This document shows positions 8,803 through 15,496 of a stretch of DNA of 18,841 bases, in pieces. The stretch spans positions 1-18,841 of the forward strand of contig JAITIE010000154.1 of NCBI GenBank assembly GCA_031279615.1, in the 5' to 3' direction. Position numbers and translations under genes: made by a program. Under the pieces are notes generated by a model. It was not told the origin of the DNA, made no database searches, and saw only the letters and a program-made list of their open reading frames with translations. Source of the DNA: Candidatus Margulisiibacteriota bacterium (GTDB lineage: Bacteria; Margulisbacteria; Termititenacia; Termititenacales; Termititenacaceae). Within the stretch, counting starts at the first letter, position 1; each line of letters starts with the position of its first letter.

Positions 8803-8901
8803 GAGAATATTTTTACCTCCGCGCGCGTTGGCTTCTCACTTAACGTCGCGCTTTGCGTTTGTTAAGTTCGCCCCAAAACGCGCTGCGGCAAAAATATTCT
8901 C
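8803..8901. repeat. Imperfect long inverted repeat at the 3' end of the fusion gene
   Basis: Two perfect outer arms (GAGAATATTTTT 8803-8814 and its complement 8890-8901) enclose two perfect inner arms (ACTTAAC 8838-8844 and GTTAAGT 8861-8867). The segments between are partly complementary (shared GCGCGTT core). The loop is 16 nt. The element covers the last 22 codons and stop of the polymerase/deacetylase gene and ends 22 bases short of the GT4 start codon. Confidence 0.6.
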
Positions 8902-10929
8902 TGCTTGCCCAGTGCGGTGTAAAAGCAATTTTAAACGGAACCGCCAAAAAGTATCGTGCGCGTAGACGCCGACTCTGGGGAAAGCCAGCAAATCATCCAT
9001 GCGCGAATTAGTTACGAAACCCAAACCATATCCATTCGCGCGCGCCAAACCTAATACCCGATCGTCCGCCGCGCCGCGGGGATAACAAACCGTATTGACC
9101 GGACAAGACAATTCTTTTTCCAGCCGCTGCTTGGAGAGCCGCAGTTCGCGCTCCGCTTCCTCGTCCGACAGTTGCTTCAAAGCATAATGATTTAAAGTGT
9201 GCGAGCCGATTGTCCAGCCGGATTTTTGCAGGTGTTTCAATTCCGGCCAGTCCAGAGGCAGATCATCTTTGCTGAATTGGGTTTGATTCTTAAAGTCCCA
9301 GTAATACGGTTCTGGACTGCCTATTTTATTGACAGTCACAAATATAGTCGCTGGAATATTGTATTTTTGCAAGACCGGCCAGGCATATTTAAGATTGTCG
9401 CGGTAGCCGTCGTCAAAAGTTATTAGACAGATTTTATTCAAGAGCGGCGCGGCCTGCGCGATATATTTTTGATAAAAATCTTCCGCGTTCATAAATAAAT
9501 ATTTCCGGCGGCGCAGATAAGCGATCTGCCTGACGAAATTTTTTTGCGCGACGGCCAGCGCATTTTTGGCTTCCGGCAAAACGCGGTGATAGGCCAGGAT
9601 TAAAACTTTGCGGTACTGCAGAGAGTTAAAGCCGCGCCGAGATTCCTCCAGTTTCAAGACCAGCAGGAGATAAAACCAGAGCAGATAAGCCATGATCGGC
9701 GCGCGCACCGAATCCTGAAACAGGCCGTAAACCGCAAAACCGAGAATGCCCAGGGCCAGACTGTACGCCAGACTGCCGGGGAGCCGGCGCAAACGCCGCC
9801 AGGTAAAAACGATAAGCAAGATGACGCCTATAAAACTCAAAAAACCGTATTCCAAAAAATATCCGAGATACATATTATGCGGCGAGAAAACATAGACCAC
9901 GCCGTCGGCCAGCGCTTCGCTCTGCACCACCTGCATATTTTCATAATTGCGACGCAGTTCCTCCGGCGTTTTGTATTGACCGCGTAAGTTTGTCCAGCGG
10001 CCGTTTTCCTGTTTCAACTTGGCGTTGAGATGCCCGCCGCCCCAGCCGTTGAGCGGATGCCGCGCGATTTGCCGCAAAGAAATTTCCGCCAGCATAGAAT
10101 GATCGCGGTTGGAAGCGTCGTTGGGATCAAAGAGCGAGCGCACTGTTTTTTGCAGCGGCGCGACAAACAGGACGGCCAGAATAGTCAAAATTATTCCGGC
10201 GGCGAAAATTTGTTTCCAATATTTTGAACGGGCAAACGATACTATGAAAACGACGGCCAGGGACACCAGCAAGGCGCGGCTGAATGAAAAAATTATATTG
10301 AAAACAGTCAAAGCCAGTATGGCAATATGAAAAATTTGATATAGAACAGCGGGAAGTTGATGTTTTGGATTTTGCCGCCCGAGAATATTCTGCCAGAACC
10401 AGGCCAGATAAGCCGGCGCGGCCAAACTCAAAAAAGCGGCAAAAACATTGGTGCCGGAGCGCGCGAGAAAAACGGAGCAAATCCGGTTCAAACCTCTGGC
10501 GTCCAGCAGAAAAAAAAACATTGGCGGCCGGGGCCAGGACCAATTGGCCATGCCGTATTGCAGGAAACCGCAGACCAGTACAAAAATGTAACCGGCGAAC
10601 GCCGCGCGCAGTAAATAATTGAAGTCTTTGGCGGAGCGTACGGCGGCGGCCAAAAAATAAAAAATCCCGATCAAGACGGTCAGCGCCAGAGCGTCGCCGA
10701 GCGCCTGCCGCGGCAGGTAGGCGTCACAGACTGACCACCACGCCGCGAACAACAGCAGGCCAAACGGCAGCTCATAGCCGGTGATTCTCCGCGTCCAGCT
10801 CCAGGTTTTTTCTTGGGTGTAAGCAAAAATTAAGCCGAGCGCGCCAGCCGCCGCGAGATTGGAGAGCCAAAACGGCAAGGCGACTAAATAAGCGCCGAGC
10901 AGGGTAAGGCAGAGGAAAAAAATAGACAT
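8836..10929 (-). CDS. Fused O-antigen ligase/polymerase-type membrane protein and NodB polysaccharide deacetylase
   Basis: This is one uninterrupted 697-residue frame with two modules. Residues 1 to about 425 are a polytopic membrane protein with about ten hydrophobic segments and a large outer loop (about 260-350) ending in SPHNMYLGYFLEYG (H351, N352), the hallmark of the Wzy_C/O-antigen ligase family, which polymerises or transfers glycans on undecaprenyl lipid outside the membrane. After about 15 linker residues, RKVLILAYHRV (440-450) opens a NodB (CE4) domain: TFDDG with catalytic Asp506 and metal Asp507, SHTLNH with metal-binding His577 and His581, CYPRGA near 615-620, and FPRVGVYAHD. 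All expected catalytic residues are present. Since Wzy_C loops act outside, the deacetylase should be placed outside too, and fusion would couple assembly with N-deacetylation. The last residues are encoded by an inverted repeat and are probably non-domain sequence. The start has no ribosome-binding site. Confidence 0.88.
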   Translation of the reverse strand: MSIFFLCLTLLGAYLVALPFWLSNLAAAGALGLIFAYTQEKTWSWTRRITGYELPFGLLLFAAWWSVCDAYLPRQALGDALALTVLIGIFYFLAAAVRSAKDFNYLLRAAFAGYIFVLVCGFLQYGMANWSWPRPPMFFFLLDARGLNRICSVFLARSGTNVFAAFLSLAAPAYLAWFWQNILGRQNPKHQLPAVLYQIFHIAILALTVFNIIFSFSRALLVSLAVVFIVSFARSKYWKQIFAAGIILTILAVLFVAPLQKTVRSLFDPNDASNRDHSMLAEISLRQIARHPLNGWGGGHLNAKLKQENGRWTNLRGQYKTPEELRRNYENMQVVQSEALADGVVYVFSPHNMYLGYFLEYGFLSFIGVILLIVFTWRRLRRLPGSLAYSLALGILGFAVYGLFQDSVRAPIMAYLLWFYLLLVLKLEESRRGFNSLQYRKVLILAYHRVLPEAKNALAVAQKNFVRQIAYLRRRKYLFMNAEDFYQKYIAQAAPLLNKICLITFDDGYRDNLKYAWPVLQKYNIPATIFVTVNKIGSPEPYYWDFKNQTQFSKDDLPLDWPELKHLQKSGWTIGSHTLNHYALKQLSDEEAERELRLSKQRLEKELSCPVNTVCYPRGAADDRVLGLARANGYGLGFVTNSRMDDLLAFPRVGVYAHDTFWRFRLKLLLHRTGQAENIFAAARFGANLTNAKRDVK

Positions 10930-10944: not shown

Positions 10945-10959
10945 TATGCGAAAATTTCC

Positions 10960-10968
10960 TGTTATAAT
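10960..10968 (+). promoter_or_regulatory. Extended -10 promoter, leaderless start of the 241-residue protein gene
   Basis: TGT-TATAAT is followed by 7 nt (TTTAGCT) and the ATG at 10976. TTAACA at 10939-10944 could serve as a -35 with 18 nt spacing, and it overlaps the -10 of the opposite promoter. Confidence 0.6.
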
Positions 10969-10975
10969 TTTAGCT

Positions 10976-11701
10976 ATGGTAGATAATCTGGTTGGCGGAA
11001 TTTACGCCAATATCAGCAAGATCAATCCGGAGACTTTGAGTCCGGAAGGCAAATTATTTTTGCGGCGTTACCGCGAAGTTTTGCAGACAAATCAAACGCT
11101 GGATAAAAATATCGGCAATCTCATCGCTACGACGCTCATTAAATTTCACAATGACAAAGGCGAGGACATAACGCAATTGTTGCTGGAGCTGATCACGATC
11201 AGTTTTCACGCGATCGAGCCGTACCGCAAATACGCCTTGGATGTGGCCGAGTATTTGCTGCTGGGCGCGATCTTTGCCGTGCTGGCTATTACGGAAGATG
11301 AGACGGAAATGCAAACTGTCATCGAGCAGTTAATGGTCGGGATTTTTACCAACCCGATTTACGAATTTGACCTTGATGAGCGCCTGAAATTGAGCGCGCT
11401 GATCCACCAAGTCGGCGCCTATATCGGGACTTTGAGTTTCTGGTCGCGTCAGTACGGCCGCCACACGCGTTTGATAAAAGCCGCTTTGCAGCAAGGTTTG
11501 ATTGAAGGCCTGGAGATTTGCAACGCTGGCGGCGATGAATTGCTAGCCGCGCGCGAGCCGAAACATTACACTCTGGCGCGCTGGAAAGGCCGCCTGCATT
11601 TTTATTTCAATCTGTTGTGGCCGCTTTTTGACCTCAACGCCAATATCATAATCCGCTGGCTGAATAAAACGACCGGTCTGGAAATCTGGCCGGTGAAATG
11701 A
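10976..11701 (+). CDS. Protein of unknown function, 241 residues
   Basis: I do not recognise a family. The start MVDNLVGGIYANISK is chosen because a perfect extended -10 lies 7 nt before its ATG. An in-frame ATG 30 nt upstream would place the promoter inside the coding sequence. The protein appears all-helical with many charged residues, a hydrophobic stretch YLLLGAIFAVLAI (about residue 90-102) too isolated to be a clear transmembrane protein, and a C-terminal part rich in aromatic residues (ARWKGRLHFYFNLLWPLF). There is no signal peptide, no Cys/His metal cluster and no nucleotide-binding loop. Codon style matches the GC-rich neighbours, so it looks native. It is divergent from the polymerase/deacetylase gene, sharing a 46-bp intergenic region, and 44 nt before the methyltransferase gene. 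Confidence 0.75.
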   Translation: MVDNLVGGIYANISKINPETLSPEGKLFLRRYREVLQTNQTLDKNIGNLIATTLIKFHNDKGEDITQLLLELITISFHAIEPYRKYALDVAEYLLLGAIFAVLAITEDETEMQTVIEQLMVGIFTNPIYEFDLDERLKLSALIHQVGAYIGTLSFWSRQYGRHTRLIKAALQQGLIEGLEICNAGGDELLAAREPKHYTLARWKGRLHFYFNLLWPLFDLNANIIIRWLNKTTGLEIWPVK

Positions 11702-11745
11702 ACCCTGTTTGTTGAATAAAGAAAATAAACGAGAGGAGTGTTTGT

Positions 11746-12642
11746 ATGAGTGATAATATTAATCTTGATCAAGATAGTTATAGAAAGTATTTGGATAATT
11801 GGCTGGACGGAATTTCTTCAGAAATCTCTTTTTGGAAAAGTCTAATGGTTGTTGAACATGCGGGGGGGGGGGGGGTAACTTATATTAAAAAAAAGTTTAT
11901 TTTAGAAAAATATATTACAGGAAAGAAAACAAGATTGTTAGATGTAGGGAGTGGGCCTTTCCCCTATGTTGGCGCTAAAACGGATAAAACGGAGTTAGAA
12001 TATCATGCTGTTGATCCGCTAGCACAGTGTTATAAAATTTTGAGAGATAGATATAAAATTTGTGCTGATATTATACCTGAATTTGCATTCGTGGAATATT
12101 TAACAGAAAAATTTTCAGAAAATTATTTTGATATTGTACATATGAGTAACGCTTTAGACCATTGTTTTAATCCGTTGCTAGGTATTTATCAAATGCTCCA
12201 TGTTTGTAGGATTGGTGGAAAAGTTATTTTACGCCATGGTAATAATGAAGCAGAAAATTCAAACTATGATGGATTTCATCAATGGAATATTTGTGTGGAA
12301 AATACGGAGCTGATAATTTGGAGACCTAAAATTAGATATAATATAACTCAAATTATACAAAAATATGCCGATATATTTTTGGAAACAAATGAGCCAAGTC
12401 AGCATGGAGTAATATTGCAAAAAAAACAAACAATACCCCTAGAAAAGATACAGTTTTTGCCGATGAGTATTGTAAATGAGAAAATATTTGAACGATTGTA
12501 TAAATTGATTTTTAGGATGGTTGATAAAAAACGCAACAATGTTTATATATGGATAAGATACCTTTTGTTTAAAATTCCGCTGGTTGTAATTTTGTCTAAA
12601 AACATTAAAAAAATGCAAAACTTGAGAAAAATAAAAGAATAA
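11746..12642 (+). CDS. SAM-dependent methyltransferase with an internal poly-G tract
   Basis: This is a 298-residue class I methyltransferase. Motif I is LLDVGSGPFPYVG (about 64-76), the acidic residue ending beta 2 is in YHAVDP (Asp90), and YFDIVHMSNALDHCFNPL plus GGKVILRHG correspond to motifs IV and V. The N-terminal SEISFWKSLMVVEH resembles putative methyltransferases of surface-glycan loci. AGAGGAG (11732-11738) precedes the ATG by 7 nt. Two features are odd. A run of 14 G (11862-11875) encodes A39-G40 to G43. The gene is also strikingly AT-rich, with codons such as ATA, AGA and TTA that neighbours avoid, so it was probably acquired by transfer. One G fewer or more brings a stop within five codons, so the gene is readable only at this tract length modulo 3. 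Its substrate is likely a sugar or lipid-linked glycan, by context only. Confidence 0.85.
   Translation: MSDNINLDQDSYRKYLDNWLDGISSEISFWKSLMVVEHAGGGGVTYIKKKFILEKYITGKKTRLLDVGSGPFPYVGAKTDKTELEYHAVDPLAQCYKILRDRYKICADIIPEFAFVEYLTEKFSENYFDIVHMSNALDHCFNPLLGIYQMLHVCRIGGKVILRHGNNEAENSNYDGFHQWNICVENTELIIWRPKIRYNITQIIQKYADIFLETNEPSQHGVILQKKQTIPLEKIQFLPMSIVNEKIFERLYKLIFRMVDKKRNNVYIWIRYLLFKIPLVVILSKNIKKMQNLRKIKE
11862..11875 (+). repeat. G14 homopolymer in the methyltransferase gene
   Basis: Fourteen consecutive G lie at codons 39-43. With 13 G the next codon becomes TAA. With 15 G, a TAA follows after Gly-Asn-Leu-Tyr. This is the structure of a slipped-strand phase-variation switch, currently in the ON register. 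Confidence 0.85.
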
Positions 12643-12647
12643 AATTT

Positions 12648-13199
12648 TTACTTGCTAGATTTTTTCAGCACCTCTTTTTTAAACGTGCCGAAAATATATA
12701 AATCCTCCGGTTTCCCATCTGCTCCGCGCAGATAATTGTGGAGCACAGCTTCCGGCTCCTGCTTGGCGGTTTTGTAACGCTCCAGTTTTTCCGCGTCGCC
12801 ACCGGAAACATAGGTATAAACTTTGTGCAGGTCGAGGTCTTTAAAAATATAATTATAAACCTGCGTGACGATGACTAGACTTAAATCGGTATTGCGAAAT
12901 TCCGCAGGAATATAAATTTGCAGAATGGCGTTGCGGTTTTGCCAGTTAAAATTTTGCAGGGCAATAAAAGCGGTCAAAATCTCGCCGTTGGCTTCCGCGA
13001 CGAGCAGCCGCGTGCGCGCTTCGATCATCCGCCCGACGGCAATTTCTTTGAGCAGCTGATTTTGCAACAGCCGCTTGTTGTTGCAGGGATAGGTTGTCAG
13101 GTTGTGCTGGTAATAATCCGCGTTGGTCAGCCAGGCGGCGACTTTGGGCAGGTCGCGTTTTTCCAGATGGCGCAGGCTGATCGTGATTTTTTCGCTCAT
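12648..13199 (-). CDS. RimJ/RimL-type GNAT acetyltransferase
   Basis: This is a 183-residue cytoplasmic N-acetyltransferase. It opens with ITISLRHLEKRDLPKVAAWLTN, the typical first strand and helix of the Acetyltransf_3 group (strand, E/D-x-D, L, x-x-W). ARTRLLVAEANGEILTAFIALQNFNWQNRNAILQIYI gives the paired central strands, and LSLVIVTQVYNYIFKDLDLHKVYTYVSGGD gives the acetyl-CoA helix and following strand. Here and in the gene upstream the acetyl-CoA loop Q/R-x-x-G-x-G/A is not well preserved, so the donor may differ. The ATG overlaps the stop of the upstream GNAT gene by 4 nt (ATGA), so the two are co-translated. Its 3' end is 5 nt from that of the convergent methyltransferase gene. The acceptor is unknown; an amino-sugar is plausible in this locus. 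Confidence 0.75.
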   Translation of the reverse strand: MSEKITISLRHLEKRDLPKVAAWLTNADYYQHNLTTYPCNNKRLLQNQLLKEIAVGRMIEARTRLLVAEANGEILTAFIALQNFNWQNRNAILQIYIPAEFRNTDLSLVIVTQVYNYIFKDLDLHKVYTYVSGGDAEKLERYKTAKQEPEAVLHNYLRGADGKPEDLYIFGTFKKEVLKKSSK

Positions 13200-14329: not shown

Positions 14330-15496
14330 CTATAATAATGCCTCTGTTGCTTGGCGCCAATTGAGCAGGCGGTAGGTGGATGTTTGAGTTTCGGTATGGC
14401 CGGTGTAAATAACAGCGGCTTGAGAGGACGGCGCGGTTATTTTTAAACTATTCCAGTATTTTAGTCCTTTGGTAAAATCAGAGGCAAAAGTGCCGCCTTT
14501 TTTGATTTCTACCGGGATGAGTTTTTGTCCGCGTTTTAAGAGCAGATCGATTTCGTGACCGTTTTTTTCACGAAAGAAATAAAGATAATCCGGACTTTTA
14601 CGATTTAACAGCTCTTTTTTAATATCAGCGATTATAAAGTTCTCAAAAATAGACCCGATCAAATAATGAGTTTCAAGTTCACGCGCGTTTTTTAGGTCCA
14701 GCAGATAACATAACAGCCCCGTGTCGTAAAAATATATTTTCGGCATTTTGGTCAGCTGTTTGCCGATATTTTTGTGCCAGGGTTCAAGCGCAAAAATAAT
14801 ATAAGTTGCTTCCAAAATAGACAGCCAGTCTTTGATAGTAGTCGAAGTGACGCCGATATCGTTAGCGAGGCTGGAGGCGTTAAAAGGCTGGGCGATACGT
14901 CCGGCCAGCAAACGCACGAACTTGCGAAAAAGGCGCAAATTACTAACGTTTTTTATTTGCCGCACATCGCGTTCGATATAGGTGGAGGTATATTCTTCAT
15001 AGTACACGGTCGGATTTAGCCTGCGGTCAAAAATGGCTGGATAACCGCCAGTGAAAATCTTGGCGTAGAGATTTTTCAGCGGCAATTTGCTTTGGGCGAT
15101 TTCAGAATTGACCAGCGGCGGCAAGGTAAGATACGCGGCGCGTCCGGTCAGGGATTGGGCTATTTTGGCGCTCAGGAGAAGATTTTCACTGCCGGAAACT
15201 ATGTAGCTGCCCATAATCTTTTGCTCGTCAACCACAGCTTGAATATAAGAAAGCAGTTCGGGAACACGCTGCACCTCATCAATAATTATTTTTGCTTGCT
15301 TGGAATTAATGAAAGCGGCGGGATCTTCCGTGAAGAGCCGGTAAGTTTCTATATTTTCGAGATTGAAATATTTATAATTCTTGAAATAAGTTTTAAGAAA
15401 AGTTGTTTTGCCGCTTTGTCTGGGGCCGGTCACGGCGAGGACCGGAAATAGTTTTTTGTATTTTTCCGCCGTGGAAATAATGTTTCTTGGAAGCAT
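14330..15496 (-). CDS. ATP-binding protein of the AAA_14/DUF4143 family
   Basis: This is a 388-residue protein. The N-terminal AAA_14 P-loop domain shows Walker A GPRQSGKTT (24-32) and Walker B AKIIIDEVQRVPEL (Asp73, Glu74), with an SGSENLLL sensor-like segment and TGRAAYLTLPPL. The middle has a winged-helix-like segment (FNASSLANDIGVTSTTIKDWLSILEATYI). The C-terminal DUF4143 part has HEIDLLLKRGQKLIPVEIKKG, a D-x-n-E-x-K arrangement of the PD-(D/E)XK nuclease fold. The length is typical of the family. These proteins are scattered, often multicopy genes in host-associated bacteria. Their function is poorly known, and links to mobile or conflict systems have been suggested. Here it stands alone, with its own promoter next to a perfect inverted repeat, splitting the polysaccharide genes from rfbB. 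Confidence 0.9.
   Translation of the reverse strand: MLPRNIISTAEKYKKLFPVLAVTGPRQSGKTTFLKTYFKNYKYFNLENIETYRLFTEDPAAFINSKQAKIIIDEVQRVPELLSYIQAVVDEQKIMGSYIVSGSENLLLSAKIAQSLTGRAAYLTLPPLVNSEIAQSKLPLKNLYAKIFTGGYPAIFDRRLNPTVYYEEYTSTYIERDVRQIKNVSNLRLFRKFVRLLAGRIAQPFNASSLANDIGVTSTTIKDWLSILEATYIIFALEPWHKNIGKQLTKMPKIYFYDTGLLCYLLDLKNARELETHYLIGSIFENFIIADIKKELLNRKSPDYLYFFREKNGHEIDLLLKRGQKLIPVEIKKGGTFASDFTKGLKYWNSLKITAPSSQAAVIYTGHTETQTSTYRLLNWRQATEALL

Follow-up and report, generated by a model that had tools for sequence, protein, structure and literature searches.

How should fourteen guanines in a row inside a bacterial coding sequence be understood: as a switch, as decay in a dispensable gene, or as an error of assembly? 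The question is raised by the stretch of DNA analysed here (the window, 18,841 nucleotides), which is the whole of contig C21 in a 1.02-Mb assembly of 165 contigs that is about 80% complete. The source organism is a relative of Candidatus Termititenax (Margulisbacteria), because the protein encoded to the left of the gene in question is 91-92% identical to counterparts in Ca. Termititenax aidoneus (BGZN01000014.1) and in a Margulisiibacteriota metagenome-assembled genome (MAG; JAIRZV010000077.1). The run of guanines (G14) interrupts an open reading frame (ORF) predicted to encode a class I S-adenosylmethionine (SAM)-dependent methyltransferase. We propose that the tract is best explained as a translational phase-variation (contingency) switch, a reading that we consider highly probable.

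The case begins with the reading frame itself. An earlier note, made from the letters of the window, had described 14 in-frame Gs at 11862-11875, and the run is read there directly; it occupies codons 39-44 (GCG GGG GGG GGG GGG GTA) of the 298-amino-acid ORF at 11746-12642, not codons 39-43 as the note had it. When nine tract lengths, from 10 to 18, were substituted by script, full read-through was obtained only at 11, 14 and 17 Gs (297, 298 and 299 amino acids), in line with the note's statement that every third length alone yields a protein. At 10, 12, 13, 15, 16 and 18 Gs translation stops after 42-48 residues, and frame arithmetic reproduces the two cases that had been spelled out, a TAA as the next codon with 13 Gs and a TAA four codons on with 15. 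The hexapeptide DVGSGP, which we take to be SAM-binding motif I, lies downstream of the tract and is therefore lost upon a frameshift. Such a run is also improbable by chance, as the note had argued: apart from it, G/C runs in the window reach at most 6, those in 300 first-order Markov copies of the sequence reach at most 11, and runs of at least 14 are expected about 0.003 times in the whole genome. The locus thus shows two features expected of a contingency locus, a coding homopolymer beyond chance expectation and an early stop upon a change of one unit.

Hypothetically, the switch would work as follows. Slipped-strand mispairing would alter the number of Gs; tracts of 3n+2 Gs (11, 14, 17) would give the full methyltransferase, and any other number would end the protein ahead of its SAM-binding motif. 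The tract would be borne by a tolerant linker between two conserved blocks. Across 41 aligned proteins this linker varies from 13 to 27 residues (20 in the window protein) and is modelled as a loop, and the blocks that flank it are conserved in 38-40 of 40 homologs. On the N-terminal side W19, G22, E26 and W30 are identical in 39/40; on the other, conservation of the motif is 39/40 for D66, 38/40 for V67, 40/40 for G68, 39/40 for S69, 40/40 for G70 and 39/40 for P71. A glycine run at the tract position occurs in none of the 119 other homologs among those listed.

The fold of the protein is modelled as the Rossmann-like one of a class I methyltransferase (AlphaFold2, mean confidence score pLDDT 87.8), with motif I being glycine-rich, and the nearest solved structures are generic methyltransferases. 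There are 232 homologs, the best-scoring one 46% identical, and many of those listed carry PF08241 (Methyltransf_11) or PF13847. The window protein is closer to Methyltransf_11 than to the FkbM methyltransferases: it has no match to PF05050 (FkbM) at E 0.001, and a search of the whole genome to which the window belongs (G000) gave none either. A role in phage defence was considered and set aside on the lack of a PADLOC match for the methyltransferase; three homologs on viral contigs are remote (27-36% identity).

The gene is, on the sequence evidence, a recent acquisition that arrived alone, and three signs support its transfer, which the earlier note had proposed. First, in four relatives (G001, G003, G005 and G006) the aligned ends of its two neighbours lie only 14-43 bp apart (the G005 size being taken from coordinates), and this near-empty slot therefore points to the insertion of one gene; homology to Ca. 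T. aidoneus ends at 11702 and picks up again at 12647. Second, no match to the gene was found in the five same-genus and two same-family genomes tested, and across 37 relatives there is a single weak partial match, in one genome of another family. Third, its GC content is 0.30, and 0.25 at third codon positions, whereas the six other genes measured in the window range over 0.47-0.52 and 0.57-0.62, so that the gene is indeed far more AT-rich than its surroundings. No mobile element is visible at the insertion. The slot has the look of a minor hot spot where single genes are inserted, because in another relative, the MAG G004, it is occupied by helix-turn-helix-like genes (L096:982-2161; XRE-like by our own reading). 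In G007 the GNAT genes are not adjacent to the left neighbour within the stretch seen, and the left neighbour was not found in G002, a genome 63% complete. Comparison of tract length through orthologs was abandoned as a test, since the seven genus and family genomes hold none. We hypothesize that the tract arose after the transfer, or in a donor that has not been sampled, and that it brought the gene into a contingency repertoire carried by the Termititenax family.

Absence from relatives would also be seen under a different scenario. A mutational tendency of the lineage may lengthen G/C runs, one of which drifted into a dispensable transferred gene, where it mutates and is not selected as a switch; a gene missing from the relatives tested may simply be on its way out. 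We regard this neutral scenario as unlikely, and the evidence that bears on it comes from the tracts of the family as a whole. G-runs of at least 10 number 6, 36, 5, 35, 40, 31, 14 and 8 in the eight family genomes, 175 in total. A G10 query matches 30 of 38 genomes, with 17-349 overlapping matches in family genomes versus 0-29 in the others. The excess is not one of homopolymers in general, an idea rejected on the rarity of A-runs of at least 10 (0-4 per family genome; 0-34 in six other genomes). Nor is it explained by loss of mismatch repair through MutS, since MutS (PF00488) was found in seven of the eight family genomes; it was not found in G001, and the G002 copy is broken up.

Of the 175 tracts, 125 were examined, many of those near contig ends being omitted (in G005, 12 of 31 were listed and 6 in 4 stretches examined). 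Tracts at homologous sites persist at 72-97% flank identity, which argues against unselected drift, and their lengths differ between genomes or paralogs at loci other than that of the window: 12, 14, 16 and 18 Cs before lipoprotein-like genes, 12 versus 15 at a junction of TetR and outer-membrane efflux genes, and 11 versus 13 and 13 versus 14 elsewhere. These freely varying lengths bear on another account, in which the ribosome or RNA polymerase slips on G14, a single cell makes a mixture of full and truncated protein, and the length of the tract is tuned. Long homopolymers are known slippery sites. However, variable lengths, together with genes whose tract leaves them out of frame, fit switching at the level of DNA, and we consider programmed slippage very improbable.

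By a simple reading-frame criterion, 43/125 tracts lie in genes, and Pfam assigns 20 of these genes to ten methyltransferases, eight glycosyltransferases, one UDP-galactopyranose mutase and one DUF5672 protein; two of the 20 are weak or unproven (a below-cut-off match to PF13649 at L130:2001, and the DUF5672 gene, both halves of which match the same family), leaving 18 without them, and among the ten methyltransferases that of the window and one other lie under Pfam cut-offs. Seven of the 20 are in frame (ON) and 13 out of frame (OFF), and about one third ON is expected under a random frame. With tracts shorter than 20 only (longer ones may be truncated by the assembler) and DUF5672 excluded, 4/12 are ON. 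A ratio near one third is likewise what random drift would produce, and to that extent it suits the neutral scenario. That scenario is at odds with the FkbM methyltransferases of the family: of their 13 hits in eight genomes, ten contain or adjoin a tract of at least 10 and three lack one, where about 0.3 associations are expected by rough arithmetic from 175 tracts in about 12 Mb. The frameshift switch that the earlier note proposed is in these respects supported, in a lineage where G/C tracts are plentiful and frequently fall within genes for methyltransferases and glycosyltransferases.

A second methyltransferase of the same genome (contig C48, L031:3181-3952) is OFF as assembled, with a C12 tract that has 66 codons before it and 186 after it in different frames. 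Its relative in G005 (L199) carries C15 near the same place and has an unlike upstream end at the contig edge; only 29 bases precede the tract there, outside the DNA alignment, which could reflect recombination or a chimeric assembly. Several of the 43 cases, among them L115 and L199, have short or non-ATG upstream pieces. In G003 (L138:1370-3385) a TetR gene reads through G12 into an outer-membrane efflux gene as one frame of 671 amino acids, and the G004 relative of this junction (L187:1-2020) has G15 and two frames.

Other tracts of the family occupy promoters. Of 115 tracts whose flanks were long enough for the test, 10 are bracketed in the C orientation by -35- and -10-like hexamers that together match at 10 or more of 12 positions, versus 0.56 expected from shuffled flanks; the same test found no such tract in the G orientation. 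The spacers are 14-22 long. Eight of the ten genes behind them start with a lipobox-like signal, presumably the mark of a lipoprotein, and one of the two remaining genes encodes a glycosyltransferase with a sugar-binding region. A neutral lengthening of runs does not readily account for this placement.

A third arrangement is a leader. Sixteen of the 125 tracts are preceded by a short leader whose last part is a shared ...TTAACAGTTA-like sequence, and in 13 of the 16 there is an in-frame start with a ribosome-binding-like site; two of the leader tracts are among the 43 within genes (L122, which is in frame and matches no Pfam family, and L147, where the FkbM gene is out of frame in the assembly). 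In G003 the palindrome TTTTnGCKTAnnTAMGCnAAAA adjoins the poly-G tract in eight of nine cases (L132, L134, L136, L152, L153 and L154). Searches for the strict pattern came up empty in G000, the genome of the window, and in G004 and G007, and the palindrome is likewise absent from six genomes of other families that were searched. It may serve as an operator, form a hairpin or represent a small mobile repeat. Tentatively, we suggest that Termititenax and its kin use a portable contingency module, copied before different genes, those of glycan enzymes included, by which new genes may be recruited into a switchable surface repertoire soon after transfer. The module would consist of a ribosome-binding site, a start codon followed by some eight codons (in many cases ...YYLTVT), a poly-C tract and, frequently, the palindrome of about 22 bp, and it would exist alongside promoter-spacer C-tracts and independent coding G-tracts such as that of the window. 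The window tract itself was rejected as a promoter spacer or module part, as it is not among the tracts that passed either test. Elsewhere in its genome, a G11 (L030:2877-2887) follows what we read from the translation as an ...LTV leader start.

Several observations weigh against a switch, or against its connection with the cell surface. The G14 tract is the sole known copy, from one member on one contig, with a single length and an intact frame; that length is the length in one assembly, and assembled homopolymer lengths are uncertain. An internal TTG at codon 64 with AGGA upstream might permit some restart, minus the conserved N-terminal block, in a frameshifted state. The match of the protein to PF08241 scores 20.5 bits, just below the cut-off of 21.2, and the 66-residue upstream piece of the C48 methyltransferase has no Pfam match of its own. 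For 14 of the 43 tracts within genes, the pieces scanned match no Pfam family, and nine more match other families (two TetR-outer-membrane-efflux junctions, a subtilase, a PKD-domain protein, a transglutaminase-like protein, HTH/Bro-N, DUF4097, a ParA-type ATPase and a marginal DUF4625). The 62 scanned genes that face intergenic tracts are of varied kinds, with aldolase, transketolase and ribosomal protein L19 among them (25 of 65 families shown), and such housekeeping neighbours are as the neutral scenario would have them. Given the unmatched genes and the mixed intergenic neighbours, the tracts are therefore not confined to known surface genes. Three genomes from other families of the phylum gave 5, 7 and 11 G-runs of at least 10 with the same query. 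Lengths pile up at 20-22 (18/125 tracts) in a way that resembles an assembler limit, and for 21/125 tracts a contig end is no more than 100 bp away, which could point to mixtures of lengths or simply to hard sequence.

The position of those 21 tracts, in an assembly broken into 165 contigs, invites the reading that the G run or its exact length is an artefact of sequencing or assembly. The window tract, however, is internal to its 18.8-kb contig, and both sides of it belong to one continuous family alignment; tracts recur at homologous sites in other assemblies, and A-runs show no excess in the family. We give the artefact next to no credence.

If the tract is a switch, what does it switch? 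We hypothesize slippage at G14, a protein that is either ON or OFF, and a methylated product exposed at the surface, for which a glycan or a lipid-linked sugar is the likeliest candidate. The earlier note had leaned on the gene's position in a surface-polysaccharide locus, and that support is weak: the gene was inserted alone, between an ORF with no Pfam match and a GNAT-like gene, and does not belong to a conserved glycan operon. A lone insertion between conserved genes implies that the neighbours say little about the substrate of the methyltransferase. A surface glycan is nonetheless the likeliest target, a reading to which we lean with moderate confidence, because of the company that such tracts keep and not because of this gene's own context. 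Termititenax cells live attached to spirochaetes of termite-gut protists, and switching of a methylated product could help in evading phages or in altering attachment to partner cells in the gut.

The mechanism has classical precedents. Campylobacter jejuni NCTC11168 has 29 G/C tracts of at least 7, one of them in the heptose methyltransferase gene cj1426, and a reporter of this capsular heptose 6-O-methyltransferase switched at 2.3-2.8 x 10^-2 (PMC8437040; PMC4965091); another report ties cj1421, cj1422 and cj1426 to phage resistance (PMC8355987). The likeness drawn here is one of mechanism: in both, the length of a G/C tract within a methyltransferase gene determines the reading frame. The window gene differs in belonging to another phylum and in being a lone insertion outside a conserved capsule operon. 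In Neisseria meningitidis porA, a poly-G tract is described as a promoter spacer (PMC3899988). Other tracts of the Termititenax lineage resemble it in lying between promoter-like hexamers, whereas the window tract is coding and the lineage's promoter tracts mostly precede lipoprotein-like genes. A paper on homopolymeric tracts as general frameshift regulators describes a homopolymer in the 5' part of a gene and reversible inactivation (PMC2831843); the excess in the Termititenax family is specifically of G/C and not of A tracts of at least 10. Within the lineage, the FkbM genes with tracts share with the window gene the kind of tract and the broad enzyme class, and differ by the PF05050 domain.

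Phase variation by G/C tracts is best known from cultured, host-adapted bacteria. In one open-access library, judged by titles, we found no report of such switching for the Termititenax lineage. The mechanism is classical; the novelty appears to lie in the lineage that hosts it, in its scale there, and in a gene so recently acquired yet already equipped with a probable switch. That a family of uncultured termite-gut symbionts carries 5-40 tracts of at least 10 bases per genome, some within genes for glycan enzymes and others as spacers in the promoters of lipoprotein-like genes, suggests that rapid change of the surface is under selection in these symbioses, from attachment partners, from phages or from both. 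The tracts are also ready length markers for single-cell or long-read data.

Features of the methyltransferase locus (positions in the window)
Feature	Position	Strand	Remarks
Left neighbour, 251-amino-acid ORF	10946..11701	+	conserved in the lineage; no Pfam match; 92% identical in Ca. T. aidoneus
Single-gene insertion	11703..12646	+	putative; bounded by the ends of homology to Ca. T. aidoneus
Ribosome-binding-site-like GAGAGGAG	11731..11738	+	7 nt before ATG 11746; read directly
Predicted class I SAM-dependent methyltransferase ORF, 298 amino acids	11746..12642	+	full-length (ON) frame as assembled
Conserved N-terminal block, residues 12-30, Y..YL..WL.GI.SEI.FW	11779..11835	+	5' of tract; predicted helix 9-38
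G14 homopolymer	11862..11875	+	in frame; third base of codon 39 to first base of codon 44; read directly
Presumed SAM-binding motif I DVGSGP, residues 66-71	11941..11958	+	3' of tract
Right neighbour, GNAT acetyltransferase-like	12648..13199	-	matches below curated cut-offs

Three further tracts of the same genome lie before or between genes. On contig C104 (L032:2720-2738) a G19 lies 85 bp before an ABC-2 type transporter gene, polysaccharide-export-like by our own reading. This tract and the sequence at its edge recur over 40-48 bases at tract sites of G001 and G003, and a search for orthologous promoters returned five matches, all short (23-48 bases), of which four fall on tract sites. A C10 (L034:2648-2657) falls between genes whose translations we read as LpxB-like and methyltransferase-like, and a G10 (L033:2237-2246) precedes what we read from its translation as a glycine-rich surface-like protein.

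Elsewhere in the window, positions 8836-10929 hold a single ORF that fuses O-antigen-ligase-type (Wzy_C) and polysaccharide deacetylase domains by Pfam, and a similar ORF is present in Ca. T. aidoneus (L095:7951-9987). A protein that we read as ATPase-like, at 14330-15496, matches the PADLOC candidate defence family PDC-S01 (E 6e-97).
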